Shown here piece by piece: positions 1 to 14,110 of a DNA stretch of 14,110 bases (positions within the stretch are counted from its first letter, which is position 1; every line of letters begins with the position of its first letter). The position numbers and the translations under genes were made by a program. The stretch comes from Gammaproteobacteria bacterium (GTDB taxonomy: Bacteria > Pseudomonadota > Gammaproteobacteria > SZUA-152): positions 1 to 14,110 of the forward strand of contig JAUWVK010000025.1 in the NCBI GenBank assembly GCA_030617485.1, in the 5' to 3' direction. The notes under the pieces are model-generated. The model was not told the origin of the DNA. It saw only the letters and a program-made list of their open reading frames with translations, and searched no databases.

Positions 1-127
1 GTAACATTCCTGATCTTATTTCATCATAGTGCTGTAACGACAATGGAGTGATAGAAAATCATTCTGCCTTCCTGATCTAACTTGAAATTAAATTAACAAT
101 CAAACTAACAACGATGGAGTAAATAAA
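1..127 (+). promoter_or_regulatory. Leader of the bufferin operon, with duplicated segments and the bufA ribosome binding site
   Basis: This AT-rich leader ends in a clear Shine-Dalgarno GGAG at 116-119, 8 nt before the ATG at 128. Two short direct repeats are visible. TTCCTGATCT occurs at 7-16 and 69-78, and ATGGAGT occurs at 43-49 and 114-120. The sequence after the first ATGGAGT resembles the true bufA start region, but ATC stands where the ATG would be. This suggests a partial duplication of the leader or the remnant of an older gene start. I could not identify a convincing sigma-70 promoter; TTGAAA at 82-87 has no good -10 partner. Confidence 0.5.
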
Positions 128-394
128 ATGAAAAAAAGTAAATTGATCGCCCATACAGCACTTGCCAGCTTGTTTGCAGTCACTGTAATGGCCGCCAGCC
201 AACCTGTAGAAGCAGGCAAAAAGAAAATGGAAAAATGCTATGGCATTGTTAAGGCAGGCCAAAATGACTGCCAAACTTCTAACAGTGCTTGTGCTGGTAC
301 AGCAGAAGTTGATGGAAAACCCACAGCATTTATTGCGTTGCCCAAAGGCAGCTGCGAGAAAATTGTTGGCGCTAGCCTGAAACCAAAAGCCTAA
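128..394 (+). CDS. bufA1: Bufferin-type copper-binding RiPP precursor (BufA1, DUF2282 family)
   Basis: This 88-residue exported precursor has a Lys-rich n-region (MKKSK), a hydrophobic core at about residues 6-23 and a probable signal peptidase I site after V27-E28-A29. The mature part is about 59 residues and has exactly four cysteines (C37, C48, C55, C76), in contexts typical of DUF2282: KCYG, NDC, CAG, and LPKGSCEK near the C-terminus. Known for the family: bufferins are ribosomally made, post-translationally modified peptides. The MNIO enzyme BufB modifies core cysteines, to thiooxazoles in the studied case, and the product chelates copper in the periplasm. Inference: the same role here, because bufB, bufC and a DoxX gene follow at once. 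The start is fixed by GGAG 8 nt upstream of the ATG. I am sure of the family. The exact modification pattern cannot be read from sequence. Confidence 0.9.
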   Translation: MKKSKLIAHTALASLFAVTVMAASQPVEAGKKKMEKCYGIVKAGQNDCQTSNSACAGTAEVDGKPTAFIALPKGSCEKIVGASLKPKA

Positions 395-427
395 ATTTAC
401 ATTACGAGTTTCATTAGAGCTTTTGTT

Positions 428-1378
428 ATGGCGACACTTGACCTCAATTCAGTTGGTGACAGCACAGAAATGAACATACCTCCGCGTGCAGGCATAGGTC
501 TGCGCGCGGAGCATTTTGAAGATATTCTGGAACAGCAACCGGATATTGGCTGGGTTGAGGCGCACAGCGAAAATTATTTTGGGCTGGGTGCTGCGAGCTT
601 AGCCAAGAGTGGTGGTAGCAAACCTTTTGAATACCTGGAACGGGTACGAAATTTATACCCGGTTAGTCTTCATGGTGTTGGTTTGTCTGTTGGTTCCACT
701 GACCCTCTGAACCAGCAACATTTAATTAATCTAAAGCATTTAATCGATCGTATTGAGCCAGGCCTGGTTTCAGAGCACCTGTCCTGGGGATCAGTTAATG
801 ATCAGTATTTTAATGATTTACTGCCAATGCCTTATACGCAAGAATCTCTGGATCATATGGTTCAGCGAATCGATGAAGTACAGGCGTTTCTTGGCAGGCA
901 GATTTTGATAGAGAATGTTTCCTCATATCTAGAGTACAGGGTATCAACCATTCCTGAATGGGAGTTTGTAACCGAACTTTCGCAGCGCTCTGGTTGCGCC
1001 GTGTTGCTTGATGTAAACAATATTTATGTTAATGCCATGAACCATGGTTTTAATGCAGAACGGTTTATCCAAAGTATTCCGGTAAACGTAGTAAAAGAAA
1101 TCCACCTTGCAGGCCACACCGTTAAGGAAATAGATGGCGGCGTGATTCGATTAGACACCCATGATCATCTGGTTTGCGATGAGGTATGGGAGTTGTATCG
1201 GTTAGCGGTCAATCGTTTTGGTCCCGTGCCGGCGTTGATAGAATGGGATAAAGACTTGCCGAAACTTGATGTGTTAGTAGGTGAAGCTAAACGAGCTGAC
1301 GAGATACGCGAAAGCCAGTTACCAGAATCCCGGTTCAGAAAAACAATGTCTGAGGCCAGCAATGAACAGTTTGCGTAA
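428..1378 (+). CDS. bufB: BufB, DUF692/MNIO multinuclear iron enzyme that matures the bufferin
   Basis: This 316-residue TIM-barrel-type protein belongs to the DUF692 (MNIO) family. It has the family landmarks in order: PRAGIGLR at the N-terminus, EAHSENYF, SLHGVGLSVGS, EHLSW (E116-H117), LIENVSSY, LLDVNNIYVNAMNHG (D195, N197), EIHLAGH (H226, H230), THDH (H245, D246, H247) and LIEWD. The conserved His, Asp, Glu and Asn residues are those expected to hold the iron ions. Known for the family: MNIOs oxidise cysteine or other side chains of RiPP precursors with O2. BufB acts on BufA together with BufC. The gene starts 33 nt after bufA. No strong Shine-Dalgarno precedes ATG 428, and ATG 470 (MNIPPRAGIGLR) is a possible alternative start. 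The 3' end overlaps bufC by 17 nt, which suggests translational coupling. Confidence 0.92.
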   Translation: MATLDLNSVGDSTEMNIPPRAGIGLRAEHFEDILEQQPDIGWVEAHSENYFGLGAASLAKSGGSKPFEYLERVRNLYPVSLHGVGLSVGSTDPLNQQHLINLKHLIDRIEPGLVSEHLSWGSVNDQYFNDLLPMPYTQESLDHMVQRIDEVQAFLGRQILIENVSSYLEYRVSTIPEWEFVTELSQRSGCAVLLDVNNIYVNAMNHGFNAERFIQSIPVNVVKEIHLAGHTVKEIDGGVIRLDTHDHLVCDEVWELYRLAVNRFGPVPALIEWDKDLPKLDVLVGEAKRADEIRESQLPESRFRKTMSEASNEQFA

Positions 1379-2177
1379 GTTGCAGGAAGGTTTTGCGCGC
1401 TCGGTGATTGAAGGCATGGATGAGAACTATGCTAGTTCAATTTGTGATGTCGGTTTAAGTGGTGCCCGCCGTCTGGGGATTTACCAGCACGGAGTTTCTA
1501 TTAGTTTGAGTGAAGCGTTAGGCGGCGTTTATGAGGTTGTAAAAAAACTGGTCGGTGACGAATTTTTTGCGCATGTTGCAGAGAATTATGTGAGGGTTCA
1601 TCCTTCGACATCAGGCAATATCCATGAGTTTGGCAAAAATTTTCCTGAATATCTGGAAAATTTCCTGGGGCTGGAAACATTGCCTTATTTGCCTGACGTG
1701 GCTCGGCTTGAATGGGCTTATCACGCTGCGTTCCATTCTCCAGTCGGAGAAATGCTTAACATTAACAAGTTATCCCAAGTGTCAGAATTGCAGTATGAGC
1801 AGTTAACGTTATTTTTATCATCCACGTGTTATTTGCTGCAATCAAGTTTTCCTGTTCTTCGTATTTGGCAAGTTAATCAGGAAGATGCTTTTAATGGTGT
1901 TAGTAACGGCGATAGTAACGGTGATGGGGTGGTGGACCTTAATGAAGGTGGTGTGGAGTTAGCCATTGTTCGGGAAGGTAAACAAATCGCGTTTCATTCA
2001 TTGAATCCTGGTACGTTCGCTATGCTAAAAGCAATTTCCGTTGGGGAAACATTTAACACTTCCTGTCAGGCGGCGTTGAATATTGATTCAGGCTGTGACG
2101 TTAGCAAGGTGTTGCAGGATGCGGTAATGAACAGAATTGTGGTTGGGTTTTCTGTGGGTGATGGCGTAAAAAAATAA
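1362..2177 (+). CDS. bufC: BufC, DUF2063 partner protein of the MNIO enzyme
   Basis: This 271-residue protein has an N-terminal DUF2063 domain (about residues 1-95) with the signature R-RLGIYQHGVSISLSEAL, followed by VVKKLVGDEFF, VHPSTSGNIHEFG and PDVARLEWAYHAAFH. A C-terminal domain contains FPVLRIWQVNQ. Known for the family: DUF2063 proteins bind the RiPP precursor and present it to the MNIO. I chose ATG 1362 because TGAGG at 1351-1355 lies just upstream and the family homology begins there. A longer in-frame start at 1281 would add 27 residues buried in bufB. An odd feature is a Gly/Asn/Asp-rich insertion at about residues 180-195. It is built by a 12-bp tandem duplication and ends in DSNGDGVVDLNE (184-195), which matches an EF-hand calcium-binding loop. 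The assignment is firm, but the loop's role is unknown. Confidence 0.9.
   Translation: MNSLRKLQEGFARSVIEGMDENYASSICDVGLSGARRLGIYQHGVSISLSEALGGVYEVVKKLVGDEFFAHVAENYVRVHPSTSGNIHEFGKNFPEYLENFLGLETLPYLPDVARLEWAYHAAFHSPVGEMLNINKLSQVSELQYEQLTLFLSSTCYLLQSSFPVLRIWQVNQEDAFNGVSNGDSNGDGVVDLNEGGVELAIVREGKQIAFHSLNPGTFAMLKAISVGETFNTSCQAALNIDSGCDVSKVLQDAVMNRIVVGFSVGDGVKK
1902..1925 (+). repeat. 12-bp tandem duplication inside bufC (AGTAACGGYGAT x2)
   Basis: AGTAACGGCGAT at 1902-1913 is followed directly by AGTAACGGTGAT at 1914-1925, with one base different. The copies encode SNGD-SNGD in frame. Together with the next bases they create an EF-hand-like Asp/Asn loop. The near identity of the copies suggests a fairly recent slippage event. 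Confidence 0.85.
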
Positions 2178-2219
2178 ATTTTCGTGTGCAAAAATTAGTT
2201 AGCAAGCTGGAGAATAACT

Positions 2220-2687
2220 ATGTCGAATATTATGAACAATGCATTAGTGCAAAAAGCCACAGGGTTGATTAAACCTATATACGGTAAATTGGATTATTTG
2301 TCTCCGCTGAGCATTTTGGCCTTACGTCTTTGGGTGGCTTGGGTCTTTTTTAAGTCAGGCATGCTTAAATTTAACTCCTGGGACTCCACGCTTTACTTGT
2401 TTGAATACGAATATGCTGTGCCGGTAATTCCTTATGAGCTTGCCGCTTATATGGGTACGGCTGCGGAACTTTTTTTGCCTGTTTTGTTGGCATTTGGTTT
2501 GGCCGGTCGTTTTGGAGCCATCGCTCTATTTGTGTTTAATATCACGGCGGTACTTTCCTACCCGGATATTAATGCAGCGGGCATACGTGACCATCAGGTA
2601 TGGGGATTGATGTTGCTGGTACCCATGCTAATGGGACCGGGCAAACTGTCTCTTGATCATCTAATAGGTAAAAAATTCAACCTGTAG
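2220..2687 (+). CDS. DoxX-family inner-membrane protein of the bufferin operon
   Basis: This 155-residue polytopic membrane protein has about four hydrophobic segments: around residues 30-46 (ILALRLWVAWVFFKSG), 74-95 (AAYMGTAAELFLPVLLAFGL), 99-114 (FGAIALFVFNITAVLS) and 124-141 (VWGLMLLVPMLMGPGKL). The LRLWVAWVFFKSGMLK stretch and the later AELFLPVLL resemble DoxX-family proteins. GGAG at 2209-2212, 7 nt before the ATG, supports the start. The gene lies 42 nt after bufC on the same strand, so it is probably co-transcribed. Known context: DoxX genes recur next to bufABC. Their exact role is unsettled, and a link to thiol or electron chemistry at the membrane has been proposed for DoxX relatives. 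I see no basis for a more specific function here. Confidence 0.85.
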   Translation: MSNIMNNALVQKATGLIKPIYGKLDYLSPLSILALRLWVAWVFFKSGMLKFNSWDSTLYLFEYEYAVPVIPYELAAYMGTAAELFLPVLLAFGLAGRFGAIALFVFNITAVLSYPDINAAGIRDHQVWGLMLLVPMLMGPGKLSLDHLIGKKFNL

Positions 2688-2694
2688 GGGATTC

Positions 2695-2721
2695 GCCTAA
2701 GGTCTTATAGGCTAGAGTTTT
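2695..2721 (+). terminator. Possible weak terminator after the bufferin operon
   Basis: A short inverted repeat, GCCTA at 2695-2699 and TAGGC at 2708-2712, has an 8-nt loop. It is followed by TAGAG and five T residues (2717-2721). It sits between two convergent genes and overlaps the last base of the opposite-strand gene's stop codon. The stem is only 5 bp, so efficiency is uncertain. Confidence 0.35.
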
Positions 2722-3134
2722 TGAACACAGAGCAAGTACTGTGCTTCGTCCGGGGCTGCGTTGTTTTGCTGAGATTCCCATAGCGCACGTCCCAGACATT
2801 CCATGATTTGATGTTCTACCTCATGCGGGTCCTGTAGACGAAGCAATAATTTTTTATGTGACGTGACAATGCCCGGTGGCCGGTCGGTACTGAGTTGCTC
2901 ACGGATGGCGATGTGCATGCCCATGTGCATAAAGGGGTTGGAATCACCCATTTCAGGCATAAAATCCTTATCCAGAGCATCTTCACCTTTGCCCAGCATG
3001 TCATGGTATTCAGGATGCATGGCAACCACCTCGGATATCATAACTTCTAGAGGCTGCATCACTTCACCTGCCTGATGTTTGCGCCAGGCGTCGATATACA
3101 TTTGTCGTAGCTGGTTACGGTCCTGTCCAAACAT
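2712..3134 (-). CDS. DUF1841 family protein
   Basis: This 140-residue soluble protein starts MFGQDRNQLRQMYIDAWRKH and contains HPEYHDML, GDSNPFMHMGMHIAIREQ and EVEHQIMECLGRALWESQ, the pattern of the DUF1841 family of proteobacterial proteins. It has no signal peptide or membrane segment. It is rich in His and Met in the middle region, but I would not claim metal binding from that alone. The gene begins 12 nt after the nth stop on the same strand with no good Shine-Dalgarno, so translation is probably coupled to nth. The family function is unknown. The pairing with nth suggests shared expression, not necessarily a repair function. Confidence 0.85.
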   Translation of the reverse strand: MFGQDRNQLRQMYIDAWRKHQAGEVMQPLEVMISEVVAMHPEYHDMLGKGEDALDKDFMPEMGDSNPFMHMGMHIAIREQLSTDRPPGIVTSHKKLLLRLQDPHEVEHQIMECLGRALWESQQNNAAPDEAQYLLCVQKL

Positions 3135-3146
3135 ATTGTTAGATAT

Positions 3147-3782
3147 TCACTCGTAAATTTTCTGTTTGTATTCGCACAAATCTTCGATCACACAAGAGCC
3201 GCATCGTGGTTTGCGCGCCACACAAGTATATCGGCCGTGCAGAATAAGCCAATGGTGAGCATCTTGCTTGAAGTCATCCGGCACAAATTTCAGCAGCTTT
3301 TTTTCCACTTCGACCACATTTTTACCTGGGGCGATTTTGGTGCGGTTTGATACCCGAAAAATATGGGTGTCCACAGCAATAGTGGGCTGACCAAAGGCGG
3401 TGTTCAGGATAACGTTGGCCGTTTTTCGTCCTACTCCGGGCAGGGCTTCCAGATCGGCACGATTCTCAGGAACCCGGCTGTGATGTTGTTCCACCAGCAT
3501 CTTACAGGCTTTAATGATGTGCCTGGCTTTGCTGTTAAACAGTCCAATCGTTTTGATGTAGGTCTTTAGTCCATCCTCACCTAACGCCAGAATGGCCTCA
3601 GGGGTGTTTGCTGCCGGAAACAGAATTGTAGTGGCTTTGTTAACGCCCTTGTCGGTGGCCTGGGCAGACAGCACCACAGCCACCAGCAACTCAAATGGGC
3701 TCTGATAGTTGAGCTCGGTTCTGGGTTCAGGATTTTGCTGTTGCAGGCGCTGGAAAATCTGCAGGCGTTTTTGAGGATTCAT
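3147..3782 (-). CDS. nth: Endonuclease III, bifunctional DNA N-glycosylase / AP lyase
   Basis: This 211-residue protein is the same length as the E. coli enzyme and keeps its landmarks at the same positions. The helix-hairpin-helix LPGVGRKTANVIL contains catalytic K120, D138 lies in VDTHIFRV, and a [4Fe-4S] cluster motif C-X6-C-X2-C-X5-C is formed by C187, C194, C197 and C203. It removes oxidised pyrimidines from DNA and cleaves the abasic site in base excision repair. I chose the ATG at 3782 because it gives MNPQKR and the standard length. An upstream in-frame GTG at 3881 would add 33 residues without homology. The gene leads a two-gene operon with the DUF1841 protein and diverges from priA across the DnaA-box-rich region. 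Confidence 0.96.
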   Translation of the reverse strand: MNPQKRLQIFQRLQQQNPEPRTELNYQSPFELLVAVVLSAQATDKGVNKATTILFPAANTPEAILALGEDGLKTYIKTIGLFNSKARHIIKACKMLVEQHHSRVPENRADLEALPGVGRKTANVILNTAFGQPTIAVDTHIFRVSNRTKIAPGKNVVEVEKKLLKFVPDDFKQDAHHWLILHGRYTCVARKPRCGSCVIEDLCEYKQKIYE

Positions 3783-3945
3783 TCTGGGTGTGTTGAGTCT
3801 TTTGAATAGTATTAAGGGATGCACATTCTGGCAAATTCGATGTGAGACTGGAAGTTTTTGCAGGGAACGATTAAAAAACACGTTATTTCACTAGGCCCCA
3901 GAAACGCTACTTTGTGTCAACACTTTTTAGAGCTTATTTTGACGG

Positions 3946-3954
3946 TTATACACA
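3946..3954 (+). promoter_or_regulatory. DnaA box TTATACACA
   Basis: TTATACACA matches the relaxed consensus TTWTNCACA exactly and equals the known R2 box of the E. coli origin. It lies about 170 bp from the main three-box cluster. Confidence 0.5.
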
Positions 3955-4051
3955 TGAACGTTGAAATGGTGGTTGTCAGCGCAAATTATTGCCAAAAATG
4001 CTGCTAAGTGCTTGAATGATTGTTAACTAGTTGAAATATATAGTAATAACA

Positions 4052-4060
4052 TGTGGTTAA
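4052..4060 (-). promoter_or_regulatory. Near-consensus DnaA box (TTAACCACA on the minus strand)
   Basis: The plus strand reads TGTGGTTAA, one base away from the consensus. It lies within the most AT-rich part of the region, next to TAGTAATAA at 4041-4049. It is weak support alone and relevant only as part of the cluster. Confidence 0.3.
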
Positions 4061-4120
4061 ATAGTAACCAATTTGTAAATGGAACTCGTATTGTAGTGTA
4101 AAAAGACCTTTTTCATAATG

Positions 4121-4155
4121 TTGTCCACAAAGTTATCCACAGCTTTTGTGGATAA
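4121..4155. promoter_or_regulatory. Triple DnaA-box cluster with a 9-bp inverted repeat
   Basis: Three boxes lie in 35 bp: TTGTCCACA (4121-4129, plus, one mismatch), TTATCCACA (4133-4141, plus, perfect) and TGTGGATAA (4147-4155, which is a perfect TTATCCACA on the minus strand). The two perfect boxes form a 9-bp inverted repeat around a 5-nt centre (GCTTT). The tight opposed arrangement resembles DnaA assembly or regulatory sites and is unlikely to arise by chance. Confidence 0.65.
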
Positions 4156-4333
4156 ACGATAAAGCCATTACAGGACATAGAGTTAGCGACTTTTAGTGAT
4201 AAGACTTGTGAACCAATAACGCTAAAACAGATATTAATATTAAATGCGGATGGGATTAGTGAGTGACGTTTAACCGATAATTTTTGTTCGTGAGTTCAAA
4301 CACTGGAACTTGCTCTTCATAACGCCATCTATT

Positions 4334-4342
4334 TTTTTCACA
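4334..4342 (+). promoter_or_regulatory. Relaxed DnaA box TTTTTCACA
   Basis: TTTTTCACA fits TTWTNCACA but not the strict consensus. It lies about 60 nt upstream of priA in a T-rich run, so a chance match is quite possible. Confidence 0.2.
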
Positions 4343-4399
4343 CCAAATAAACGAATGTGGCATGACATCCAGTGAATGATTTTAGGGTAAAATTGACTC

Positions 4400-6652
4400 A
4401 TGCCCCCCGCAAAAACCTACTGGCGTCTTGCCGTACCTTCACCCTTACGTCGTAGCTTCGATTACCTTCCATCAGCAGAGTCTGATCGTGGATCGTCCCC
4501 GGGGTGCCGGGTGCGGGTCTCCTTCGGCCGGACTTCGTCGGTTGCGGTAATGATGGAACACGCCGACAGTACGCTGGTGGCCCATAATCGTCTCAAATCA
4601 GCTCAGGAAGTGCTGGATAAAGAGCCTCTATTTTCACCAGAGTTATTGGCGCTTCTCAAGTGGGCGAGTACTTACTACCAGTACCCGATAGGCGAGGTGG
4701 TCAACAATGCCTTGCCCGCCATTCTAAGACAGGGCAAACCTGCTGAAGCAAAAGGTGAATCTTGTTGGCGTTTGACCACAGAGGGACGTGATGTGAACCC
4801 TGATTCACTCACACGTGCGCCGAAACAGGCAGCTTTGTTGCAATTGTTGGCGGCCAGTAAAGGTGGCTTGTTTGCCAGGGAGATTGACGCCGTACAGAGT
4901 AACTGGCGTGCCGTGATGCGGTCTTTACAGAAGAAGGGCTGGGTGAGTGTCGAGACGCAGGTTTCATCATCGAAATCAGGACTGGAATCAGGTTCGAAGG
5001 CAGACAGCAGAGCAAGTTCTGAAGTGGTGTCACCGGTTTTAAACAGCGATCAGCAGAAAGCCGTGGATGCGGTGACAGCTAAGTTAGGTGACTTCGGTAT
5101 ATTTTTACTCGATGGAGTGACCGGCAGCGGCAAGACCGAAGTGTATTTGACCGTCATCGAGAAAGTGTTGGCTCGCGGAGAACAGGCGTTGGTGCTGGTA
5201 CCCGAGATTGGCCTGACACCACAGTTAGTCTCTCGGTTTAGGGAGCGTTTTTCAAAACCGGTTGTCGTGATGCACTCGGGCCTGACAAACAATGAACGGC
5301 TAAGCGCCTGGTTGAAAGCAAAGGAAGGGGAAGCGTCGATTGTAATCGGGACGCGTTCAGCAGTGTTCACGCCATTGGCAAAACCTGGGGTGATTATTCT
5401 TGATGAAGAGCATGACCTGAGTTTTAAACAGCAGGAAGGTTTCCGTTATTCCGCCCGCGATGTGGCCATGAAGCGCGGCCAGCTGGAAAAAATTCCTGTC
5501 ATTCTTGGTTCGGCTACGCCTTCGTTAGAGAGTCTTGAGAACGCCAGGCAGAAACGTTATCAGCTGCTGGTGTTACCTGAACGCGCCGGTAAAGCCAATC
5601 ATCCCGAAATCGCGGTCATTGATGTGCGCAAACAACCCATGGCAGATGGTTTATCGTCTGCTTTGGTGAATGCCATGTCGCGCCCTCTGGAAAATGGCGG
5701 TCAGGTGCTGTTGTTTTTGAACCGGCGTGGATTTGCTCCGGTATTGCTTTGCCACGATTGTGGTTGGACGTCATCTTGCAAACGTTGTGATTCAAACATG
5801 ACGCTCTTTTTTGATAAAGGCAGCAAGCGGCTACGTTGTCATCATTGTGGCTCGGAACGACCGGCTGATCCAAAATGCCCTGATTGCAGCAGTACTGAAC
5901 TGAGACCCGTGGGTACCGGCACCGAGCGCCTGGAAGAAGCGTTGGCGATACAGTTCCCCGACATAGGCATTGCACGTATTGATCGTGATACCACTCGCCG
6001 TAAAGGAGCGATGCAATCGTTGCTCGATAGTGTGCACGATGGCAGCAAACGTATTCTCGTGGGCACCCAGATGCTGGCCAAGGGGCACCATTTTCCTGAT
6101 GTCACCCTGGTGGGCATAATTGATATCGATCAGGGTTTATTCAGTGCTGATTTTCGCGCCACCGAGCACATGGCTCAGCTTATTGTTCAGGTATCAGGCC
6201 GAGCAGGGAGGGCGGAGAAGGCGGGGCAGGTGCTGATACAAACACATCATCCCGATCATCCCTTGCTCAAGGTATTGCTCGATGAAGGTTACGGAAGCTT
6301 TGCCAGCAAGGCACTGGAAGAACGTCGTCTGGCCGAGTTGCCGCCGTACCAGTACATGGCACTGTTGCGTGCTGAGGCAGTGGATACATCCTTGCCCTTG
6401 CAGTTTTTGCAGCAAGCTCGTGAAATGGCAGAGTCGATAACTGCAGGAGCTAGCAGCGTTTTATTGCTTGGCCCGATTCCGGCCCCCATGGAAAAGCGGG
6501 CAGGGCGAATACGGGCGCAGTTGTTATTGCAGTCATCATCACGCGCTGACCTGCATAACTTGTTAACCCCGTGGCTTCAACAGTTAGAGTCTTCAAAATT
6601 GGGTCGGAAGGTCAGGTGGTCCATTGACGTGGATCCGCAGGAAATGTTTTAA
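4400..6652 (+). CDS. priA: PriA, primosomal replication-restart helicase
   Basis: This 750-residue protein is slightly longer than E. coli PriA (732). The N-terminal DNA-binding part starts MPPAKTYWRLAVPSPL. The helicase core has Walker A GVTGSGKT at 239-246, the DEEH box at 335-338, GSATPSLESL, and the motif V/VI region VGTQMLAKGHHFPD and VSGRAGRAEK. Eight zinc-binding cysteines are present: C451, C454, C460, C463, C480, C483, C493 and C496. The C-terminal domain follows. PriA recognises stalled forks and D-loops and reloads DnaB outside the origin. A Ser/Lys-rich linker at about 190-210 is the least conserved part. Only a weak AGGG precedes the ATG. It is the first gene of a plus-strand set, with the thioesterase start 30 nt after its stop. 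It diverges from nth across the DnaA-box region. Confidence 0.97.
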   Translation: MPPAKTYWRLAVPSPLRRSFDYLPSAESDRGSSPGCRVRVSFGRTSSVAVMMEHADSTLVAHNRLKSAQEVLDKEPLFSPELLALLKWASTYYQYPIGEVVNNALPAILRQGKPAEAKGESCWRLTTEGRDVNPDSLTRAPKQAALLQLLAASKGGLFAREIDAVQSNWRAVMRSLQKKGWVSVETQVSSSKSGLESGSKADSRASSEVVSPVLNSDQQKAVDAVTAKLGDFGIFLLDGVTGSGKTEVYLTVIEKVLARGEQALVLVPEIGLTPQLVSRFRERFSKPVVVMHSGLTNNERLSAWLKAKEGEASIVIGTRSAVFTPLAKPGVIILDEEHDLSFKQQEGFRYSARDVAMKRGQLEKIPVILGSATPSLESLENARQKRYQLLVLPERAGKANHPEIAVIDVRKQPMADGLSSALVNAMSRPLENGGQVLLFLNRRGFAPVLLCHDCGWTSSCKRCDSNMTLFFDKGSKRLRCHHCGSERPADPKCPDCSSTELRPVGTGTERLEEALAIQFPDIGIARIDRDTTRRKGAMQSLLDSVHDGSKRILVGTQMLAKGHHFPDVTLVGIIDIDQGLFSADFRATEHMAQLIVQVSGRAGRAEKAGQVLIQTHHPDHPLLKVLLDEGYGSFASKALEERRLAELPPYQYMALLRAEAVDTSLPLQFLQQAREMAESITAGASSVLLLGPIPAPMEKRAGRIRAQLLLQSSSRADLHNLLTPWLQQLESSKLGRKVRWSIDVDPQEMF

Positions 6653-6681
6653 AAATAACAGTGAAACGTATGGAGAACGTT

Positions 6682-7071
6682 ATGGATGATTTACCCAACT
6701 CTTTACCCGAGAGGGAACCAACCACACGCCTGGTGGCGATGCCGACAAACACCAACGCCGCGGGCGATATTTTTGGCGGCTGGATAATGTCGCAGGTGGA
6801 TCTGGCGGGTTCCATTGCGGCGCTTCGAAGTGCCGGAAAACGTGTGGTGACGGTGGCAGTGAATTCCTTTTTATTTAAAAAGCCCGTTTACGTGGGAGAT
6901 CTCATCAGCTGTTATGCCGAAGTGCAAAAAACTGGCAATACTTCGTTGACTGTTTTTGTGGAAGTTTATGCGGAGCGCAATCGAGAACAGCATGATGTGG
7001 TGAAAGTGACTGAAGCGACGTTGACATTTGTTGCTTTGGATGAAGAAGGTAAACCGATTTCAGTGGGATGA
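6682..7071 (+). CDS. YciA-type acyl-CoA thioesterase (hotdog fold)
   Basis: This 129-residue single hotdog domain resembles E. coli YciA (132 residues). The key motif is NTNAAGDIFGGWIMSQVDLA at about residues 23-42, with the likely catalytic D40. VAVNSFLFKKPVYVGDLI and EEGKPISVG also match the family. Such enzymes hydrolyse acyl-CoA to free acid and CoA, often with broad chain-length range, as hexamers in the cytoplasm. I chose ATG 6682 because GGAG at 6672-6675 lies 6 nt upstream. GTG 6661 and ATG 6670 are in frame but lack a ribosome site. The gene follows priA by 29 nt and is probably read with it. I see no functional link to PriA. Substrate range cannot be told from the sequence. Confidence 0.9.
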   Translation: MDDLPNSLPEREPTTRLVAMPTNTNAAGDIFGGWIMSQVDLAGSIAALRSAGKRVVTVAVNSFLFKKPVYVGDLISCYAEVQKTGNTSLTVFVEVYAERNREQHDVVKVTEATLTFVALDEEGKPISVG

Positions 7072-7124
7072 GGGAGTTGAATGTCTGTTTTATACTGAAA
7101 GCGGACATTCGTGCATTAGAGAAA

Positions 7125-7415
7125 ATGATGAAATTATTTATTACATTGTTATTTTCATTCTGTCTGCTTGGTTGTTCAGCGATTTCCAGTGAAAATAATT
7201 ACAAACAAATTACGCAACCCGATGCTAGAAATATTGCGGGGAAATATTTGAAAAATAATAATTTATTATGGGGCGAACCGACTTCAATTCGAGAATCTCA
7301 CAAGCACTACATCTTCTTTTATCTCACGCCTGATAGTGAAAACAAAAAGGTAGGTGGAAGAATATTGAATATTCATAAGGTTTCTGGTGGTGTGTCGTTA
7401 CCACCTAGGCTTTGA
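7125..7415 (+). CDS. Small predicted lipoprotein, unknown function
   Basis: This 97-residue protein has a type II signal peptide (MMKLFITLLFSFC) and a lipobox LLGC, with the lipidated Cys at residue 17 followed by Ser-Ala. It should therefore be anchored in a membrane, most likely the outer one. The mature part contains DARNIAGKYL, LWGEP and a C-terminal GGRILNIHKVSGGV segment. The WG...GG...K-x-(S/T)-G-G arrangement faintly recalls small NTF2-like or YbbC/YhhH-type proteins, but I do not assign it. ATG 7125 or 7128 is preferred over an upstream in-frame ATG at 7068, because only the former puts a signal peptide at the N-terminus. The gene is markedly AT-rich compared with the flanking thioesterase and argS. 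It interrupts an otherwise housekeeping gene set, which hints at acquisition. Confidence 0.7.
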   Translation: MMKLFITLLFSFCLLGCSAISSENNYKQITQPDARNIAGKYLKNNNLLWGEPTSIRESHKHYIFFYLTPDSENKKVGGRILNIHKVSGGVSLPPRL

Positions 7416-7656
7416 TGCTGGGAAATTCTAATGATCGCTTTCGCTGCAAAGCAGACATTGAGATTTAGGCGGTAAGTTTTGCAGCCTTTCTCCACAAAAA
7501 GAAAAACCCTCTACCCCGCCAAGGCTGAGAATCCGCGTACGCGCCAGAAGCAATAGGCTCCGGAACCACGTACAATCACTCTCTTGTGCCGCAAGCCTCT
7601 ATCAAGGGATAATGCGGCGCTTTTCCAGTAACGTTTTCCAGCAATAAATAGCCAAA
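7416..7656 (+). promoter_or_regulatory. Intergenic region with probable argS promoter
   Basis: This non-coding stretch of about 240 bp carries a plausible sigma-70 promoter: TTGTGC at 7584-7589 and GATAAT at 7608-7613, separated by 18 bp. The -10 matches 5 of 6 consensus bases and the -35 only 3 of 6. TTTTCCAG occurs twice (7621-7628 and 7634-7641) just before the argS start, with no known meaning. I found no clear terminator for the upstream lipoprotein gene. Confidence 0.4.
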
Positions 7657-9429
7657 ATGAAACAACAACTCGCCTCCCTGGTTCAAGCCGCCATTGCCAC
7701 CCTGCAAAGTCAGGGTGTGTTGCCCGCAGACCTAACGCCAAAAATCCAGATTGACCGTGCCCGCGATGCCAGTCATGGCGATTACGCCTGCAATATTGCG
7801 ATGATGCTGGCCAAACCAGCTAAATGTAAGCCTCGCGATCTGGCGGAAAAAATCGTTGCCGCGATGCCGGCCTCTGATCAACTGGAGAAGGTCGACATTG
7901 CCGGCCCGGGTTTTATCAATTTCACGTTGACGGATGCGGCGGGTTTTATGGTGGTGGGCGCGGTGCTGGAAGCGGGCGAGGCTTACGGTCGATCCAACAT
8001 TGGTGACGATAAATCGGTGCAGGTGGAGTTTGTTTCGGCCAACCCCACCGGCCCTTTGCATGTGGGTCACGGTCGTGGCGCGGCCTACGGTGCGGCGGTG
8101 GCGGACCTGCTGGCGGCGGTTGGTTACAAAGTTCATCGTGAATATTATGTTAATGATGCCGGTCGGCAGATGGATATTCTGGCCGCCTCGGTGTGGCTGC
8201 GTTATCTCGATCTGTGCGGTGAAAACGAGAATGATGAATTGCCTTTCCCAGTCAACGGGTACAAGGGCGATTATGTGTGGGACATTGCCGCGACGGTACA
8301 CCGTGAACATGGCGAGGCTTTCCGGCATGCGGCTGGAATCGTGCTCAGTAATTTACCTAAGGATGAATCCGAAGGCGGCGACAAGGAACAATATATCGAT
8401 GCGGTAATTTCCCGCGCCAAAGAGTTACTGGGCGACAAGGGTTACCGGACGGTGTTTGATGCCGGACTCAATAGTATTCTTGAAGATATCCGTCGTGACC
8501 TGGAAGGTTTTGGTGTGGTCTACGAAGAATGGTTTTCCGAGCGTTCCCTTACTGAAACGGGTGCAGTGGGTCGCGCCATTGAACGCCTTAAAGTCGCCAA
8601 CCACCTGTACGAAAAAGACGGCGCCTGGTGGTTCCGTTCTACCGATTTTGATGATGAAAAGGATCGTGTGGTGGTACGCGACAACGGCCAAACCACTTAT
8701 TTTGCGTCGGATATTGCCTATCATATGCAAAAACTGGAGCGCGGTTTTGATCGTGTTATAGACGTGTGGGGTGCCGATCATCATGGCTACGTACCCCGCG
8801 TAAAAGCGGCATTAACAGCACTGGGTGATGACGCAAGTAAGCTTGACGTGTTACTGGTGCAATTTGCAATTTTATATCGTGGCGGTGAGAGGGCACAGAT
8901 GTCCACTCGTTCCGGCGAGTTCGTTACGTTGCGGGAGTTACGCGAAGAAGTGGGCGACGATGCGGCGCGTTTCTTTTACGTGATGCGCAAGTGCGAGCAG
9001 CACATGGATTTTGATATGGACCTGGCCAAGTCACAAAGCAGTGATAATCCGGTGTATTACATTCAGTACGCTCACGCCAGAGTATGCAGTGTGATGCGTC
9101 AGCTTGATGAAAAATCAATTGAGCACGATAGTCAAAACGGCCTGGCTAATCTTGCCGTCCTAACTGAATCTCACGAACAAAGTTTGCTTACCGGTTTATC
9201 TCGTTATCCAGAAATGGTTGAAAGCGCGGCGCTGAATCATGAGCCTCACCAGCTGGCACATTTTCTGCGCGATCTCGCCAACGATTTTCACACTTACTAC
9301 AATGCACACCAATTTTTGGTAGACGATATAGCCCTGCGTGATGCGCGACTGTGTTTGATTCGTGCCACAAGGCAGGTGATCGCCAATGGTCTGGGTTTGT
9401 TAGGCGTGTCAGCGCCAGAGTCGATGTAA
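7657..9429 (+). CDS. argS: Arginyl-tRNA synthetase
   Basis: This 590-residue class I aminoacyl-tRNA synthetase charges tRNA-Arg with arginine. The N-terminal Arg-tRNA additional domain spans roughly residues 1-110 and ends in GPGFINF. The catalytic domain has [19 protein letters not shown], with the HIGH-type motif H135-V-G-H138. The usual KMSKS loop is replaced by QMSTRSG (M415-S416-T417-R418), a divergence common in bacterial Arg[13 protein letters not shown] and the C-terminal anticodon-binding helical domain ([12 protein letters not shown] onward) are present. The length is close to that of E. coli ArgRS (577). The start gives the expected [10 protein letters not shown]-terminus, although no strong Shine-Dalgarno is seen. 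The ftsN-like gene starts 4 nt after its stop, so the two are almost certainly co-transcribed, as in other gammaproteobacteria. Confidence 0.97.
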
Positions 9430-9433
9430 GAAA

Positions 9434-10036
9434 ATGGCAAAAGATTACAAAAATACTTCCAGGCGTAAGAGTAAAAAAACCAAAGTAACACCCGGTTGGG
9501 TGTGGATGCTGGGCGGTTTGGCTATCGGTTTGTTCGTCGCCTTGCTGGTTTATCTGCTGGATAACCCAATAGAAATGAAAAAGGGAGAAAATAAACCCGC
9601 GCCTGTGATAGACAAAAGTCGTACTGCTATTGCTGAACAGAAAACTTCTCAACAGAAGGATGCCCTAGCACAAAAACCACGCTTCGACTTTTACAACCTG
9701 TTGCCTGAAATGGAAGTGTTTATTCCCGAGCAGGAAATTGCTGCCGAGCGAGAAAAAAGCAGTAGTGGTGAAACGGTGGTGTATGACCTGCAGGTAGGTT
9801 CATTTCGTCAGTTTGAAGATGCCGACCGTTTGCGCGCCAAACTGGCGCTGATGAGTTTTGAGTCACACATCCAGCGCATCACTATCAATGGTAACTACAA
9901 TCGTGAACAAACCTGGCACCGGGTCCGGGTTGGGCCGTTTACAAGCGCCCGGGAGATGGGAAAAGTCCGCAATCGATTGCGAAAGCAGGCCTTTGATCCT
10001 ATTGTCCTGAAGACGGTTCTTAAACCCAAGAACTAG
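9434..10036 (+). CDS. ftsN: FtsN-like cell-division protein with SPOR domain
   Basis: This 200-residue bitopic membrane protein has a basic cytoplasmic N-terminus (MAKDYKNTSRRKSKK), the region by which FtsN contacts FtsA. One transmembrane helix covers about 21-43 (GWVWMLGGLAIGLFVALLVYLL). A short periplasmic linker follows, then a C-terminal SPOR domain at about 115-197 (YDLQVGSFRQFEDADRLRAKL to TWHRVRVGPF). The SPOR domain binds denuded septal peptidoglycan. FtsN triggers constriction through FtsQLB/FtsWI. Position directly after argS is the classic ftsN location. It is much shorter than E. coli FtsN (319 residues), mainly in the linker. The essential activating segment should lie around residues 70-100 but is not obvious. 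Another SPOR protein role is possible, but the context favours FtsN. Confidence 0.87.
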   Translation: MAKDYKNTSRRKSKKTKVTPGWVWMLGGLAIGLFVALLVYLLDNPIEMKKGENKPAPVIDKSRTAIAEQKTSQQKDALAQKPRFDFYNLLPEMEVFIPEQEIAAEREKSSSGETVVYDLQVGSFRQFEDADRLRAKLALMSFESHIQRITINGNYNREQTWHRVRVGPFTSAREMGKVRNRLRKQAFDPIVLKTVLKPKN

Positions 10037-10277
10037 CGATATTCAGGGACTTTGTTCCCATTTCCTCATGGCCTTGAGGCCTGGCTCCAATTGACTCTGT
10101 GATTCCTGTCACAGTATCTCTATCTCTCTGTTTTTAAACTCACTTACTGAGAAATCAGAGTAAACCTTCCGTCATGCCTGCCGTTACTATACTAAGAGAT
10201 GTGCCGCGTTAATCTGTGGGAGAGATTGCGCTTTTTACCACCATTTTTTACTACATTTAGGCCCGTTAAAACAGAAT
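10037..10277 (+). promoter_or_regulatory. Intergenic regulatory region before the giant cNMP-binding gene
   Basis: This non-coding stretch of about 240 bp contains a small hairpin GGCCT-TG-AGGCC at 10070-10081, which has no T tract after it. A CRP/Vfr-like palindrome is annotated separately. A possible extended -10, TATACT, lies at 10188-10193 with only a poor -35 (TTCCGT, 10167-10172). A weak -35 would be compatible with an activator-dependent promoter. No strong Shine-Dalgarno precedes the ATG at 10278. I see no clear terminator for ftsN. Confidence 0.4.
10097..10114. promoter_or_regulatory. CRP/Vfr-like palindromic binding site (TGTGA-N6-TCACA)
   Basis: CTGTGA at 10097-10102 and TCACAG at 10109-10114 form a perfect 6+6 palindrome around TTCCTG. 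The core TGTGA-N6-TCACA is the exact CRP half-site spacing. It is centred about 85-95 bp upstream of the start point implied by the -10 at 10188, a position compatible with class I activation. It could instead be a chance hairpin. The coincidence with a cyclic-nucleotide-binding gene downstream makes it notable. Confidence 0.45.
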
Positions 10278-13200
10278 ATGAGCGCTGCCAAACAATTACT
10301 TGATCATAAACTACTCAGATCGTTATCACCCCTGTGTGATTTGACGCCGGATATGCTGACTGAGTTGAGCGCTAAATCACGCCTGGAGGAAGTGGCATCC
10401 GGAGTGACTGTTTTTTCTATCGGTGAGCGGGATCACCGCACGCTATATCTTATTGCTGGGAAGCTGGAGTTAACTGACGCCAGTGGCCGAACCACCAGGC
10501 TGGCCGCGAATACTAAACAGGCTCGCCAGCCGTTAGATCAGGAAAAACCTCGTACCGTTACAGCTATTTCAATTGGTGCGGTCACCTTGCTTAACATCGA
10601 TACCAGTCTGCTGGATATGTTGGTTAACTGGGGTAGCAACCAGACGTATGAGGTTTCTAATTTAGATGTGTCAGAGGAAGAAGAAACGGACTGGATGAGC
10701 CGGTTTCTGCAATCCAAGGTTTTCCTGAAACTGCGCGCCGAAAATATTCAGGCGATGATGATGCGCATGGAGGAAGTATCTGTGCGTGCCAACGATATCA
10801 TCATAAAGCAAGGTGATATCGATGAAAATTATTACATTATTGCCAAGGGCAAGGCCAAGGTTGCTCGTCGGGTATCTCCTGATGCGCCATTAATGAAGCT
10901 TGCCGTACTGACTGCAGGCAGCGGTTTTGGTGAAGAGGCATTAATAGCAAACAGTAAACGAAATGCTACCGTTGTGATGATGGAAGATGGCAAGCTTATG
11001 CGGCTGTCTAAAGATGATTTCATAAGCCTGTTAATTACTCCCGTGTTGCAATATGTAACCTATGATGAAGCGAAAGCCATGGATGCCCCAGATGTGGAAT
11101 GGCTGGATGTTCGCAAGCTGGATGAATTTTCTCGCGGTAGTTTGCCCGGTGCAAAAAATACACCGGTGACTGAATTGCGCCTTGGTCTACGCAAACTAAA
11201 TAAGCTTCACAAGTATATTGTTTTCAGTGAGACCGATGATCGTGCAGCAGCAGCTGTTTTTTTGCTTAATCAAAATGGTCTGGACGCCTATGTGTTGAAG
11301 GATGGCCTGGCCAAAGTTCCTAAATCGGCACAAAAAACTGCGCTACAAAAACAACAAACACCCACAGTAGATGTAGATGACGATGAGCCAATCACTGATG
11401 TTAGTAAGTGGCAAAAAAGTCCTGTTGTCAAAATGCCTGCTAATACGGAAGCTGCAGCCAGGCAGCGTGTAGAAGAGGAAATAAAACGTACTCAAGCTGC
11501 AGATCTGGCGAGGAAGCAGGCCAGCGAAGAAGTTGCTCGCCTCAAGGCCGAGGTTGTAGCATCTCGCAAACGAGCTGAAGAAGAAGCCAAAAAGGCAGCA
11601 AAAAAGGCTCAAACCGAGGCTGAAAAGGATGCGGCTGAAAAGCGTGCTGAAGCAGTGGCGCAAGAACGAGCCAGGAGCGAAGAGGCGCTGAAGCGTGCAG
11701 AGGCTGAAGCGGCAAGAGCAAAAATGGCTGCTGTGGCAAAACAGAATGCAGAGAAAGAAATTGAGCGTCTTAAGCAAGAGGCAACCAGGTCGCGCCAGGA
11801 ATCAGAAGAACAGGCTCGACGAATGGCGGCTAATGCAAAAAAAGAAGCAGAAACTGAAATTATTCGCCTTAAAGCTGAGGCAGTAGTAGCGCGCGATAGT
11901 GCAGCCAACCAGGCCAAACTGGCGGCGGATCAGGCTCGATCAGAAACAGAACGTAATCTCGCGGAGCAACAATCACAGGAAAGTGCTCGCTACCAGGGGG
12001 AGATGGAAGAGGCCTTACAGCGGGCAGAAGTTGAAGCCATGCGTGCAGAGCAATCCGAGTCGGCACGTCGTGCGGCTGAAAAAGAAACCGAACAAATGCG
12101 TGCTCAGGCTTCAAAAGCGCAACAGGAAATGGAACAGCAGACTCGTTTGGCTGCTGACCAGGCACGCTCAGAGGCAGAGCGCAAAGCTTCTCAACAGCGT
12201 GCTGAAGAACTTGCCGCCAAGCAACAGGAAATTGAGAATGCCATGAGTGCAGCTGAGTCGGAATCGGCACGAGCTCAGGCAGCGGAAAATGAGGTCGAAC
12301 GACTTAGAAATCAGGCTGATGAAGCTCGGCAGCAGGCTGAGTCTCAGGCTCGTCTGGCGGCGGATGCAGCGCGTTCTGAGGCAGAACGTGAAATGTCAGC
12401 TCAGCGTTCACAGGATATGGCACGTCTTCAGGAAGAACGTGAGGCGCTGGCAGCGCGCGCCGAGGATGAGGCGGTTCGTGCTCGAGCGGCTGATGAGGCA
12501 CGTTTACAGGCTGAGGCAGAAATTCAACGGCTAAAAGTGGAAGCAGAAGTTTCGCGCATGCAATTGGAAGAGCAGGCACAGCGCGTAGCCGATGCTGCAA
12601 GAGGTGAAACTGAGCGTGAATCTGCTCGGGCAAAAACTGCCGAAGCGGCTCGTTTGCAGGCAGAATCGGAATTGGAACGACTGGCTGCTGAGGTTGCGCA
12701 AATTCGTCTGGAGGTGAAGGCTCAGGCAAATGTGGCTAAAGACCAGGACCGTACGGAAGCGGAGCGTGAAGAGGCTTATGTGCAGGCAGAAGTTTTGGCC
12801 GAACAGCAAAAACAGACTGAGGCTATTGCGCGTCAGGCAGAAGAAGAAGCTGAACGAGCACAGATGGCTGATGAGGCCAGGCAACGTGCAGAAAATGAGA
12901 TTGCACGTCGGGAACAGGAAGCAGCGGAAGCAGCGCGTCGGGCTGAAGAAGAAGCGCAGCGTGCCCAGGAGGCAGCAGATGCGCATCGCAAGCTGGAACA
13001 GGAGCTGGTACAGCTGCGTGCAGAGGCGGAAGCTGCTCAGTCGTTAGAAGATGAAGCAGAAATTCAAAAACAGGAAGAGGCTAAGGCCGCCGAGGCTGAT
13101 GAGATTGCGCGTAAGGCAGCTGAAGAAGCGGAGCAGGCCAAAGTTAACGCTGAAAAAATGCGCCAGCAGGCTGAAGAAGATATCAAACGCCTTAAAGCGC

Positions 13201-14110
13201 AGGCTGAAGCTGCACGCATCCAGGCAGAAATTGAGGTTAAGCGATCAATCGCTGCAGCACGACGGGAAGTTGATCCTAATGCTATCAAGAAAAAAGTGCT
13301 GGCCAAAATGCAGGCGAAAGCAGATTTGGCAGCCGGGCCTAAAGGTAATTCACCCAGCGAGGTCGCTCAGCGAACACGGGCAGCTCGTTTAGCCCGTGAG
13401 TCACGCGAAGCGGGCCTTGAATCGCTAATTAGTGATGATGGTGATGACCTGGAGTCATTTTTTGGCAACGATGATGTCGTCGATCCAGATTCCAACGTTA
13501 ATTCAGCAGGCGAAAAAGCCCAGCGTATGCGCGCTCTGCAAGCAGCAAAGGAATCTGCGAGTGTTGATGAAAGTGTCGATAATATTACGGACAACGATAA
13601 TCTTATCGATCCAACAGAAGTGTTGAATGTTGATGAAGAAGAGCAAAAACGTCACTGGGGATCTGATGATCATGCCTGGGAAGCTGCTGTAGGACATCGG
13701 AAAGATCCTAATGTTGAGCGCTATGACGGTAAGTTACCGGAAGGTCTTGGGAAGGAACAACAAAAACCGGAACCTTCAACACCTAAGGTTGAAGCAGAGC
13801 CACCGAGGGAAAAGGCTGAAGAAAAAATTGTAATAGATTCTGGTACGCCAAAATATGAAGTGCAGGACGTAGATCGAAGCATCCGCCCGCAAGTGGTTAA
13901 ACCTGTAGGGAAACCTGTCAGGGAATCTGGCGGTAAGGGTAAGCTTGTAATAGGAAGTTTGATAGTGATTGTCGCCGTTGCTACAGGCGGCTGGTTTTAT
14001 GCGCAGGACGAGAGTGCGCCAAAAGAGTTGAAACAGGTTGTTGAAATGAGCGCAGAATCTCTATCGGGGTTAAAAGAAAAAATTGCTGAAACGATAAAGC
14101 AAATTAGTGA
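10278..14110 (+). CDS. Giant membrane-anchored coiled-coil protein with two cNMP-binding-like domains and a rhodanese-like domain (3' end outside window)
   Basis: I read 1277 codons without a stop to the window edge. Residues 10-115 are a degenerate cyclic-nucleotide-binding domain: YLIAGKLEL is kept but the phosphate-binding cassette is missing. Residues 149-255 are a canonical one: IIKQGDIDENYYIIAKGKAK, then FGEEALIANSKRNATV with E219 and R228 at the spacing seen in cAMP-binding proteins. Residues 262-360 are rhodanese-like (WLDVRKLDEFSRGSLPGA). The active-site loop starts with S317 instead of Cys but keeps R322, so it is probably non-catalytic. Residues about 390-995 are Ala/Glu/Arg/Gln-rich coiled coil. 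Residues 1000-1210 are acidic and probably disordered. One transmembrane helix spans 1223-1242, with Lys before and Asp/Glu after it, implying N-in/C-out. Inference: a cAMP- or cGMP-responsive scaffold on the inner membrane. The periplasmic C-terminus, and so the full role, is not visible. Confidence 0.88.
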   Translation, partial: MSAAKQLLDHKLLRSLSPLCDLTPDMLTELSAKSRLEEVASGVTVFSIGERDHRTLYLIAGKLELTDASGRTTRLAANTKQARQPLDQEKPRTVTAISIGAVTLLNIDTSLLDMLVNWGSNQTYEVSNLDVSEEEETDWMSRFLQSKVFLKLRAENIQAMMMRMEEVSVRANDIIIKQGDIDENYYIIAKGKAKVARRVSPDAPLMKLAVLTAGSGFGEEALIANSKRNATVVMMEDGKLMRLSKDDFISLLITPVLQYVTYDEAKAMDAPDVEWLDVRKLDEFSRGSLPGAKNTPVTELRLGLRKLNKLHKYIVFSETDDRAAAAVFLLNQNGLDAYVLKDGLAKVPKSAQKTALQKQQTPTVDVDDDEPITDVSKWQKSPVVKMPANTEAAARQRVEEEIKRTQAADLARKQASEEVARLKAEVVASRKRAEEEAKKAAKKAQTEAEKDAAEKRAEAVAQERARSEEALKRAEAEAARAKMAAVAKQNAEKEIERLKQEATRSRQESEEQARRMAANAKKEAETEIIRLKAEAVVARDSAANQAKLAADQARSETERNLAEQQSQESARYQGEMEEALQRAEVEAMRAEQSESARRAAEKETEQMRAQASKAQQEMEQQTRLAADQARSEAERKASQQRAEELAAKQQEIENAMSAAESESARAQAAENEVERLRNQADEARQQAESQARLAADAARSEAEREMSAQRSQDMARLQEEREALAARAEDEAVRARAADEARLQAEAEIQRLKVEAEVSRMQLEEQAQRVADAARGETERESARAKTAEAARLQAESELERLAAEVAQIRLEVKAQANVAKDQDRTEAEREEAYVQAEVLAEQQKQTEAIARQAEEEAERAQMADEARQRAENEIARREQEAAEAARRAEEEAQRAQEAADAHRKLEQELVQLRAEAEAAQSLEDEAEIQKQEEAKAAEADEIARKAAEEAEQAKVNAEKMRQQAEEDIKRLKAQAEAARIQAEIEVKRSIAAARREVDPNAIKKKVLAKMQAKADLAAGPKGNSPSEVAQRTRAARLARESREAGLESLISDDGDDLESFFGNDDVVDPDSNVNSAGEKAQRMRALQAAKESASVDESVDNITDNDNLIDPTEVLNVDEEEQKRHWGSDDHAWEAAVGHRKDPNVERYDGKLPEGLGKEQQKPEPSTPKVEAEPPREKAEEKIVIDSGTPKYEVQDVDRSIRPQVVKPVGKPVRESGGKGKLVIGSLIVIVAVATGGWFYAQDESAPKELKQVVEMSAESLSGLKEKIAETIKQIS
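11910..11954 (+). repeat. Coiled-coil repeat motif copy 1 (residues 545-559)
   Basis: It encodes QAKLAADQARSETER. Related 15-residue copies begin 76, 145 and 221 residues later in the same frame. The codons differ synonymously between copies, so the protein sequence rather than recent DNA duplication has been conserved. Confidence 0.7.
12138..12182 (+). repeat. Coiled-coil repeat motif copy 2 (residues 621-635)
   Basis: It encodes QTRLAADQARSEAER. It differs from copy 1 at three residues and begins 76 residues after it. Confidence 0.7.
12345..12389 (+). repeat. Coiled-coil repeat motif copy 3 (residues 690-704)
   Basis: It encodes QARLAADAARSEAER. It begins 69 residues after copy 2, exactly one heptad less than the 76-residue spacing elsewhere. 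Confidence 0.7.
12573..12617 (+). repeat. Coiled-coil repeat motif copy 4, diverged (residues 766-780)
   Basis: It encodes QAQRVADAARGETER, the most divergent copy, and begins 76 residues after copy 3. Confidence 0.55.

Follow-up and report, generated by a model that had tools for sequence, protein, structure and literature searches.

A giant gammaproteobacterial gene coding for a double CNB–rhodanese head, a long predicted helical rod, and a likely C-terminal membrane segment

The window, a stretch of 14,110 nucleotides from a Gammaproteobacteria bacterium (assembly GCA_030617485.1, contig JAUWVK010000025.1, positions 1 to 14,110), ended inside a giant gene whose frame started with the ATG at 10278 and ran stop-free for 1277 residues to the window's end, and this locus raised the question of what a protein with such a domain order might do. 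Its head contained two successive cyclic-nucleotide-binding (CNB) domains, CNB1 and CNB2, plus a rhodanese-fold domain, and was followed by a predicted helical rod and a single hydrophobic segment. The reading preferred here, with a probability of roughly 0.45, was a long-reach cytoplasmic tether fixed in the membrane, whose docking head would be switched by a cyclic nucleotide. Its computed support consisted of the domain order, the intact CNB2 cassette, the lost rhodanese Cys, the helix, one transmembrane segment of N-in orientation, and the varying rod length; we infer the ligand identity, the switching, the partner, and the cellular place.

The search with residues 1–400 (scoring was limited to the 7993 candidates sharing most words) gave 87 proteins, 82 of which (P0001 to P0082, 734 to 1910 residues; here termed long relatives) carried the CNB and rhodanese domains; P0083 to P0087 did not have the full head domain set and were excluded from every count. 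The chance of a stop-free run of 1276 codons was about 2e-30 at the base composition of the window, and the frame 10278–14108 was a real gene; the open frame of at least 1277 codons reported in the preliminary description was confirmed, and all 82 long relatives shared its head. The closest relative P0001 was identical at 330 of 350 head positions (94%) and at 508 of 559 aligned rod positions, and its alignment covered the whole frame, broken by four gaps of which a single one, a 43-residue gap within the helix, exceeded five residues. A read-through or misassembly fusing two genes, an error that the preliminary description had itself foreseen, would accord with a frame cut by the window's end and a rod of repetitive character by eye; it was nevertheless rejected as having next to no probability, because the P0001 alignment extended along the entire frame and long relatives were located on other contigs, with complete ones in several named contigs of metagenome-assembled genomes (MAGs). 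The giant gene contained no tandem DNA repeats (degenerate repeats were seen by eye at the protein level), and a simple consensus scan of 9900–10400, which is weak evidence, gave no promoter or terminator.

P0001 extended 136 residues beyond the window's end, with a short charged stretch and then an acidic low-complexity tail, and the complete window protein should, by this comparison, have about 1410 residues. The tails of P0001 to P0004 beyond this point were 130 to 139 residues long and of low-complexity look, and the precomputed Pfam list of P0001 had no domain within its 136 residues. The effector domain once supposed to lie in the unseen C-terminus was accordingly rejected for the close kin of the window, but the idea held for other branches, with 11 of the 82 long relatives ending in an FGE-sulfatase/SUMF1 domain beyond the membrane stretch. 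No SUMF1/FGE domain was found in the window part, which leaves its last ~136 residues unseen, or in the precomputed Pfam list of P0001.

The head-only search gave 784 proteins; among the 120 listed, 114 were stand-alone CNB–CNB–rhodanese proteins (335 to 396 residues, 40–46% identical to the window), while P0088 to P0093 looked like truncated giants and were excluded from the stand-alone counts. Fragments may be present in both sets, the 82 long and the 114 stand-alone proteins, since some members were encoded on short contigs. The tree was a quick one with long branches and without bootstraps, and it was composed of 94 rows chosen from the 25 closest long proteins (9 taken), the 57 other long proteins (51), and the 120 listed head-search proteins (23), plus ten loci and the window. 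The window was placed in a 21-row clade (Shimodaira–Hasegawa-like approximate likelihood ratio test, SH-aLRT, ≥95) nested in a larger clade of 48 long-protein rows (SH-aLRT 99); the clades used for the Cys counts were read from this tree, and rows outside it were grouped with their near relatives.

Pfam recognized cNMP_binding in two stretches of the window protein (best 167–252) above the curated cut-off (PF00027: 74.8 bits versus a gathering score of 27.5), and at E 0.1 the window part contained only cNMP_binding and Rhodanese and no kinase domain. CNB2 was canonical, as previously described, and its cassette residues Glu219 and Arg228 were invariant in all 82 long relatives. CNB1 had been called degenerate, which was right as to the missing canonical cassette (there was no canonical Glu) but overlooked that CNB1 had its own conserved cassette: Pro91 was present in 79/82 long and 114/114 stand-alone relatives and Arg92 in 69/82 and 113/114, respectively, Arg92 being weaker in the window's clade (20 of 32, with His in 12).

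The Rhodanese domain was located by Pfam at residues 266–346, above the curated cut-off, and its best rhodanese match lay in an NADH-dependent persulfide reductase. The fold of an active rhodanese was present and the catalytic Cys of the active loop was replaced by Ser317, which agreed with the earlier term pseudo-rhodanese; the sole Cys among the 1277 residues was Cys20. The active-loop Cys was kept in 113 of the 114 listed stand-alone relatives (113/116 in one earlier count that kept two of P0088 to P0093 as short) and in 44 of the 82 long relatives, with the latter distributed as follows: (i) none of 32 in the window's clade (31 Ser and 1 Gly); (ii) 27 of 29 in its sister clade; and (iii) 17 of the remaining 21. 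All 11 SUMF1-ended relatives kept it. Because the fold was retained while the Cys was lost, a docking or packing role would be the simplest reading of this domain.

AlphaFold2 (eight sequences) predicted helices at residues 388–570, 576–817, and 828–997, separated by two short breaks, and the composition of residues 396–997 was Ala 26%, Glu 20%, Arg 12%, Gln 10%, and Leu/Ile/Val/Met 13%. Compared to shuffles, the i,i+3/i+4 charge pairs of the rod displayed z 6.3 for attractive and z −8.8 for repulsive pairs, the charge-pair pattern of a single alpha-helix or TolA-II-like rod; the Escherichia coli TolA control gave z 2.6 and −6.8 without heptads of large hydrophobics, and the MukB arm controls gave large-hydrophobic heptads of z 5.2 and 5.4 with neither charge-pair signal. 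Heptads of large hydrophobics in the rod had z 0.6 overall (−1.0, 2.5, and −1.0 by thirds, 2.5 belonging to residues 601–800), heptads counting Ala had z 4.2 overall (0.3, 2.8, and 4.2) and came from the C-terminal two thirds, and local periods of 3.43–3.48 were present in residues 816–1026. Among seven relatives tested, P0005 and P0012 of the window's clade (z 1.2 and 1.3) and P0029 of the sister clade (z 2.3) were window-like, and P0034, P0069, P0077, and P0080 had strong heptads (z 12–18). The 600-residue coiled coil of the preliminary description thus stood as a helix of about 610 residues, but its pairing is uncertain: a coiled coil is right for some relatives and unproven in the window, whose rod is as likely to be an Ala-coil or one charged helix. 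At a rise of 0.15 nm per residue, the fully extended rod would measure about 90 nm; rod length varied among relatives.

The C-terminal transmembrane helix proposed earlier was upheld by the hydrophobic residues 1223–1241, which had six Lys/Arg in the preceding 20 residues and two in the following 20, a signature of N-in and C-out. A comparable hydrophobic stretch after residue 400 was found in 71 of the 82 long relatives, and 67 of these 71 had the Lys/Arg excess on its N-side. The Lys/Arg-richer flank of a membrane segment is cytoplasmic under the positive-inside rule, and head and rod are predicted to be cytoplasmic because of this charge bias. Two motifs in front of the membrane segment, both conserved in the window's clade, were candidates for a partner site (Table 1). 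The SUMF1-bearing relatives all had exactly four cysteines of like spacing after the stretch (11/11), which would fit periplasmic disulfides.

Table 1. Positions of the giant gene, its parts, and its upstream neighbours in the window
Feature	Position	Strand	Basis or remark
argS (presumed), next upstream neighbour	7657..9429	+	
ftsN-like gene (SPOR domain)	9434..10036	+	241 bases upstream of giant gene
Giant gene	10278..14108	+	1277 codons in window, open at 3' end; ~136 more residues expected from P0001
CNB1 (residues 24–120)	10347..10637	+	CNB fold; phosphate-binding cassette non-canonical (Pro91-Arg92)
CNB2 (residues 139–256)	10692..11045	+	Canonical; fold like that of individual PKG and PKA-R CNB domains
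CNB2 phosphate-binding cassette (residues 214–232)	10917..10973	+	Canonical; Glu219 and Arg228
Rhodanese-fold domain (residues 262–346)	11061..11315	+	Pfam and fold match
Ser317 at catalytic Cys position	11226..11228	+	Alignment with relatives
Ala/Glu/Arg-rich predicted helical rod, ~610 residues (388–997)	11439..13268	+	AlphaFold2 and composition
Conserved predicted-cytoplasmic motif W-x-S-D-D-x-x-W-E-x-x-x-G-x-R-x-D-P (residues 1127–1144)	13656..13709	+	
Second conserved motif RxIRPQ, VDRSIRPQ in window (residues 1198–1205)	13869..13892	+	
Single hydrophobic, likely transmembrane segment (residues 1223–1241)	13944..14000	+	Hydropathy
Start of predicted periplasmic tail (residues 1242–1277)	14001..14108	+	Charge bias, P0001

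In the proposed mechanism, one transmembrane helix near the C-terminus would anchor a bitopic protein in the inner membrane, leaving a disordered tail to project into the periplasm, and the charged helix of ~610 residues would carry the N-terminal head into the cytoplasm; there, a cyclic nucleotide would bind to CNB2, packing or docking would fall to CNB1 and the inactive rhodanese, and ligand binding would alter the contacts between head and partner, gathering or releasing the partner at the membrane. The second-messenger-gated scaffold from cytoplasm to inner membrane suggested by the preliminary description was compatible with both the topology and an intact cassette in CNB2, but its argument from ftsN was weak. 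Class III cyclases were present in 21 of the 22 genomes carrying the giant gene, and a cyclic-nucleotide messenger is, judged by these genes, available in them, but the cyclase link is not strong.

Several points weighed against the tether. Of 35 other relatives, among which were several small genomes, 23 had the same cyclases. The residue following the cassette Arg was Asn (25) or Gly (7) in the 32 proteins of the window's clade, different from the PKA consensus Ala and PKG consensus Thr given in the available part of PMC2246266, and therefore the CNB2 ligand may be neither cAMP nor cGMP. Only the single CNB folds appeared to resemble PKA-R/PKG, as the Foldseek tandem match to 4z07 had E 7.6e-20 but a poor superposition (TM 0.31, rmsd 14.9). 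The rod model was of modest confidence (mean predicted local distance difference test score, pLDDT, 72), and, by its Ala-based heptads, the rod may be a dimeric coiled coil. The membrane call came from a plain hydropathy window with a threshold of 1.5; 11 of the 82 long relatives had no such stretch (P0044 being partial), and among the 71 that had it, the charge bias was opposite in three, all SUMF1-bearing, and equal in one.

The genomic neighbourhood was compared in 22 genomes of the window's clade (G001 to G022, G022 being cut by a contig end). The preliminary description was right in naming ftsN as the upstream neighbour, since this gene was ftsN-like with a SPOR domain; the next frame upstream was presumably argS. 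As in the window, 19 of the 21 genomes with a readable upstream flank had the ftsN-like gene immediately before the giant gene, and this order persisted down to a head identity of 43–45%. A division or envelope scaffold that acts with FtsN at the septum and relays a cyclic-nucleotide signal to peptidoglycan synthesis via its periplasmic tail would draw on this order and on two long relatives that were located elsewhere near envelope genes, L100:4962-11590 (−) after MotA/ExbB and ExbD family genes and L093:4548-9489 (+) after a sub-threshold TonB_C match. Such a scaffold was nevertheless considered unlikely: (i) the gap between ftsN and the giant gene was 157–477 bases in 13 loci, so that a single operon was unsupported; (ii) G006 had no argS/ftsN match within 8 kb upstream and G019 had other open reading frames (ORFs) in between; (iii) the upstream matches of L048 and L049 were weak (argS 26–30%; ftsN 35% and 27%); (iv) the SUMF1-type relative in L103 was located between radC and a PfkB kinase gene (PfkB, RadC, and the SUMF1 ending were Pfam-confirmed); and (v) ten relatives without the giant at that place (of 15 genomes queried, 10 supplied the region following argS) had the ftsN-like gene near argS in nine and adjacent in eight, with different genes behind it (hslVU in one), and because of this variation the argS/ftsN site may be just a place where genes settle. 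The claimed link of ftsN to function thus kept the conserved order in the window's clade but was weakened by other-branch long relatives lying elsewhere and by varying flanking genes; the adjacency would be an inherited position, and a functional link may exist.

A passive structural filament, whose rod self-assembles and whose head senses nothing any more, was held to be rather improbable. The long helix, its Ala heptads, the large-hydrophobic heptads of residues 601–800, and the local periods would all suit it, but large-hydrophobic heptads over the whole rod were no higher than in shuffles, and an invariant Glu219 and Arg228 would be needless in a non-binding module. A sulfur or redox sensor, with a head derived from a sulfurtransferase/CNB protein and reporting sulfane sulfur or cyanide stress, was thought very unlikely: the near-universal Cys of the listed stand-alone relatives and the persulfide reductase match spoke for it, and the Ser or Gly in 32/32 of the window's clade together with Cys20 as the only Cys of the window part spoke against it. 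The tether with a switched docking head was preferred over these readings.

Other features were recorded around the long relatives, some of which lay at further sites that recurred. Upstream, xth- or pyrE-like ORFs were found in L098, L099, L106, and L107 (named by eye); downstream, PfkB-kinase-like ORFs were found in L095, L101, L103, L106, and L110 (by eye except in L103). A DUF2914 protein gene, L003:12717-13193 (−), converged on the 3' end of the giant gene, and L004, L006, and L013 had ORFs of similar size and start at this end. Two head-bearing long genes (781 and 764 aa) lay side by side in L055:4995-9702 (−), an apparent duplication, and the giant gene was split into two frames in L049:6536-10097 (−), a broken gene or sequencing error. 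Stand-alone CNB–CNB–rhodanese genes adjoined birA-like and coaX-like ORFs (named by eye) in L064 and L065, whose genomes (G020 and G006) held the giant gene too. Far upstream in the window, positions 128–2687 (+) contained a bufferin-type set (a small DUF2282 protein, an MNIO enzyme of MbnB_TglH_ChrH type, a DUF2063 protein whose gene overlapped the MNIO gene by 98 bases, and DoxX); bufferins are described in the available part of PMC12452194 as copper-chelating ribosomally synthesized and post-translationally modified peptides.

Of 274 genomes sampled from the class holding G011, 129 had a head match at E 1e-20 or better, with open frames of about 340 to about 2000 residues in the rows printed for them, and 15 named contigs with the head of the window were MAGs titled Gammaproteobacteria, Chromatiales, or Ectothiorhodospiraceae. 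These counts make the head an abundant building block, and the giant represents one among several long forms that use it. The SUMF1 ending did not form one clade in the tree (three changes, at least two of them forced by starred branches).

The giant was further compared with known systems. The stand-alone proteins of ~350 aa (annotated in databases as 'CRP-like cAMP-binding protein' or left without a name) shared the whole head with the identical invariant CNB2 cassette, but they had neither rod nor transmembrane segment and almost always kept the rhodanese Cys. PKA-R and PKG shared with the giant two successive CNB domains, Glu and Arg of the CNB2 cassette, and the single-domain folds; unlike them, the giant had no kinase, a non-canonical CNB1 cassette, a poorly superposing tandem, and additional rhodanese, rod, and transmembrane parts. 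The SUMF1-ended relatives (for example P0063, P0034, and L103) had the same head, a long helical part, and a hydrophobic segment before the C-terminal part, but differed in the terminal SUMF1/FGE-sulfatase domain, the kept rhodanese Cys, and strong heptads in both of those tested (P0034 and P0069). Domain II of E. coli TolA resembled the rod as an Ala-rich helix with salt-bridge patterning and no large-hydrophobic heptad; the TolA helix is periplasmic, unlike the rod, which is predicted to be cytoplasmic, and no homology is claimed. Golgins are eukaryotic Golgi tethers with a long rod, a C-terminal transmembrane anchor, and a cytoplasmic free N-terminal end; the giant would resemble them in these traits of architecture, and golgins are not known to us to carry CNB domains.

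Bacterial CNB domains are mainly known from transcription factors, channels, and small regulators. No paper about the CNB–CNB–rhodanese–rod–transmembrane architecture was found by title or abstract start; in the available parts of two sources, 'Rhodanese homology domain' was a table row among bacterial CNB domain partners (PMC2246266), and PMC12419801 was not about this architecture. The earlier statement that no characterised bacterial protein of this order was known stood for the literature searched, but the order itself was common in the sequence databases; the family is widespread and seemingly unstudied. A bolder reading, to which only a low probability is given, would see these proteins as a bacterial counterpart of golgin tethers: rods reaching up to ~90 nm, tail-anchored in the inner membrane, with a head that captures cytoplasmic cargo and draws it to the membrane under cyclic-nucleotide control; in some branches, coupling of this head to a SUMF1 domain in the periplasm would let a second messenger sensed inside the cell be acted on outside it. 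That the Cys was lost in the window's clade and not in its sister clade offers a natural test of docking versus catalysis. If the tether with its switched docking head is true, a PKA-R-like sensor borne by a very long rod anchored in the membrane would represent a new means of positioning the second-messenger response spatially.

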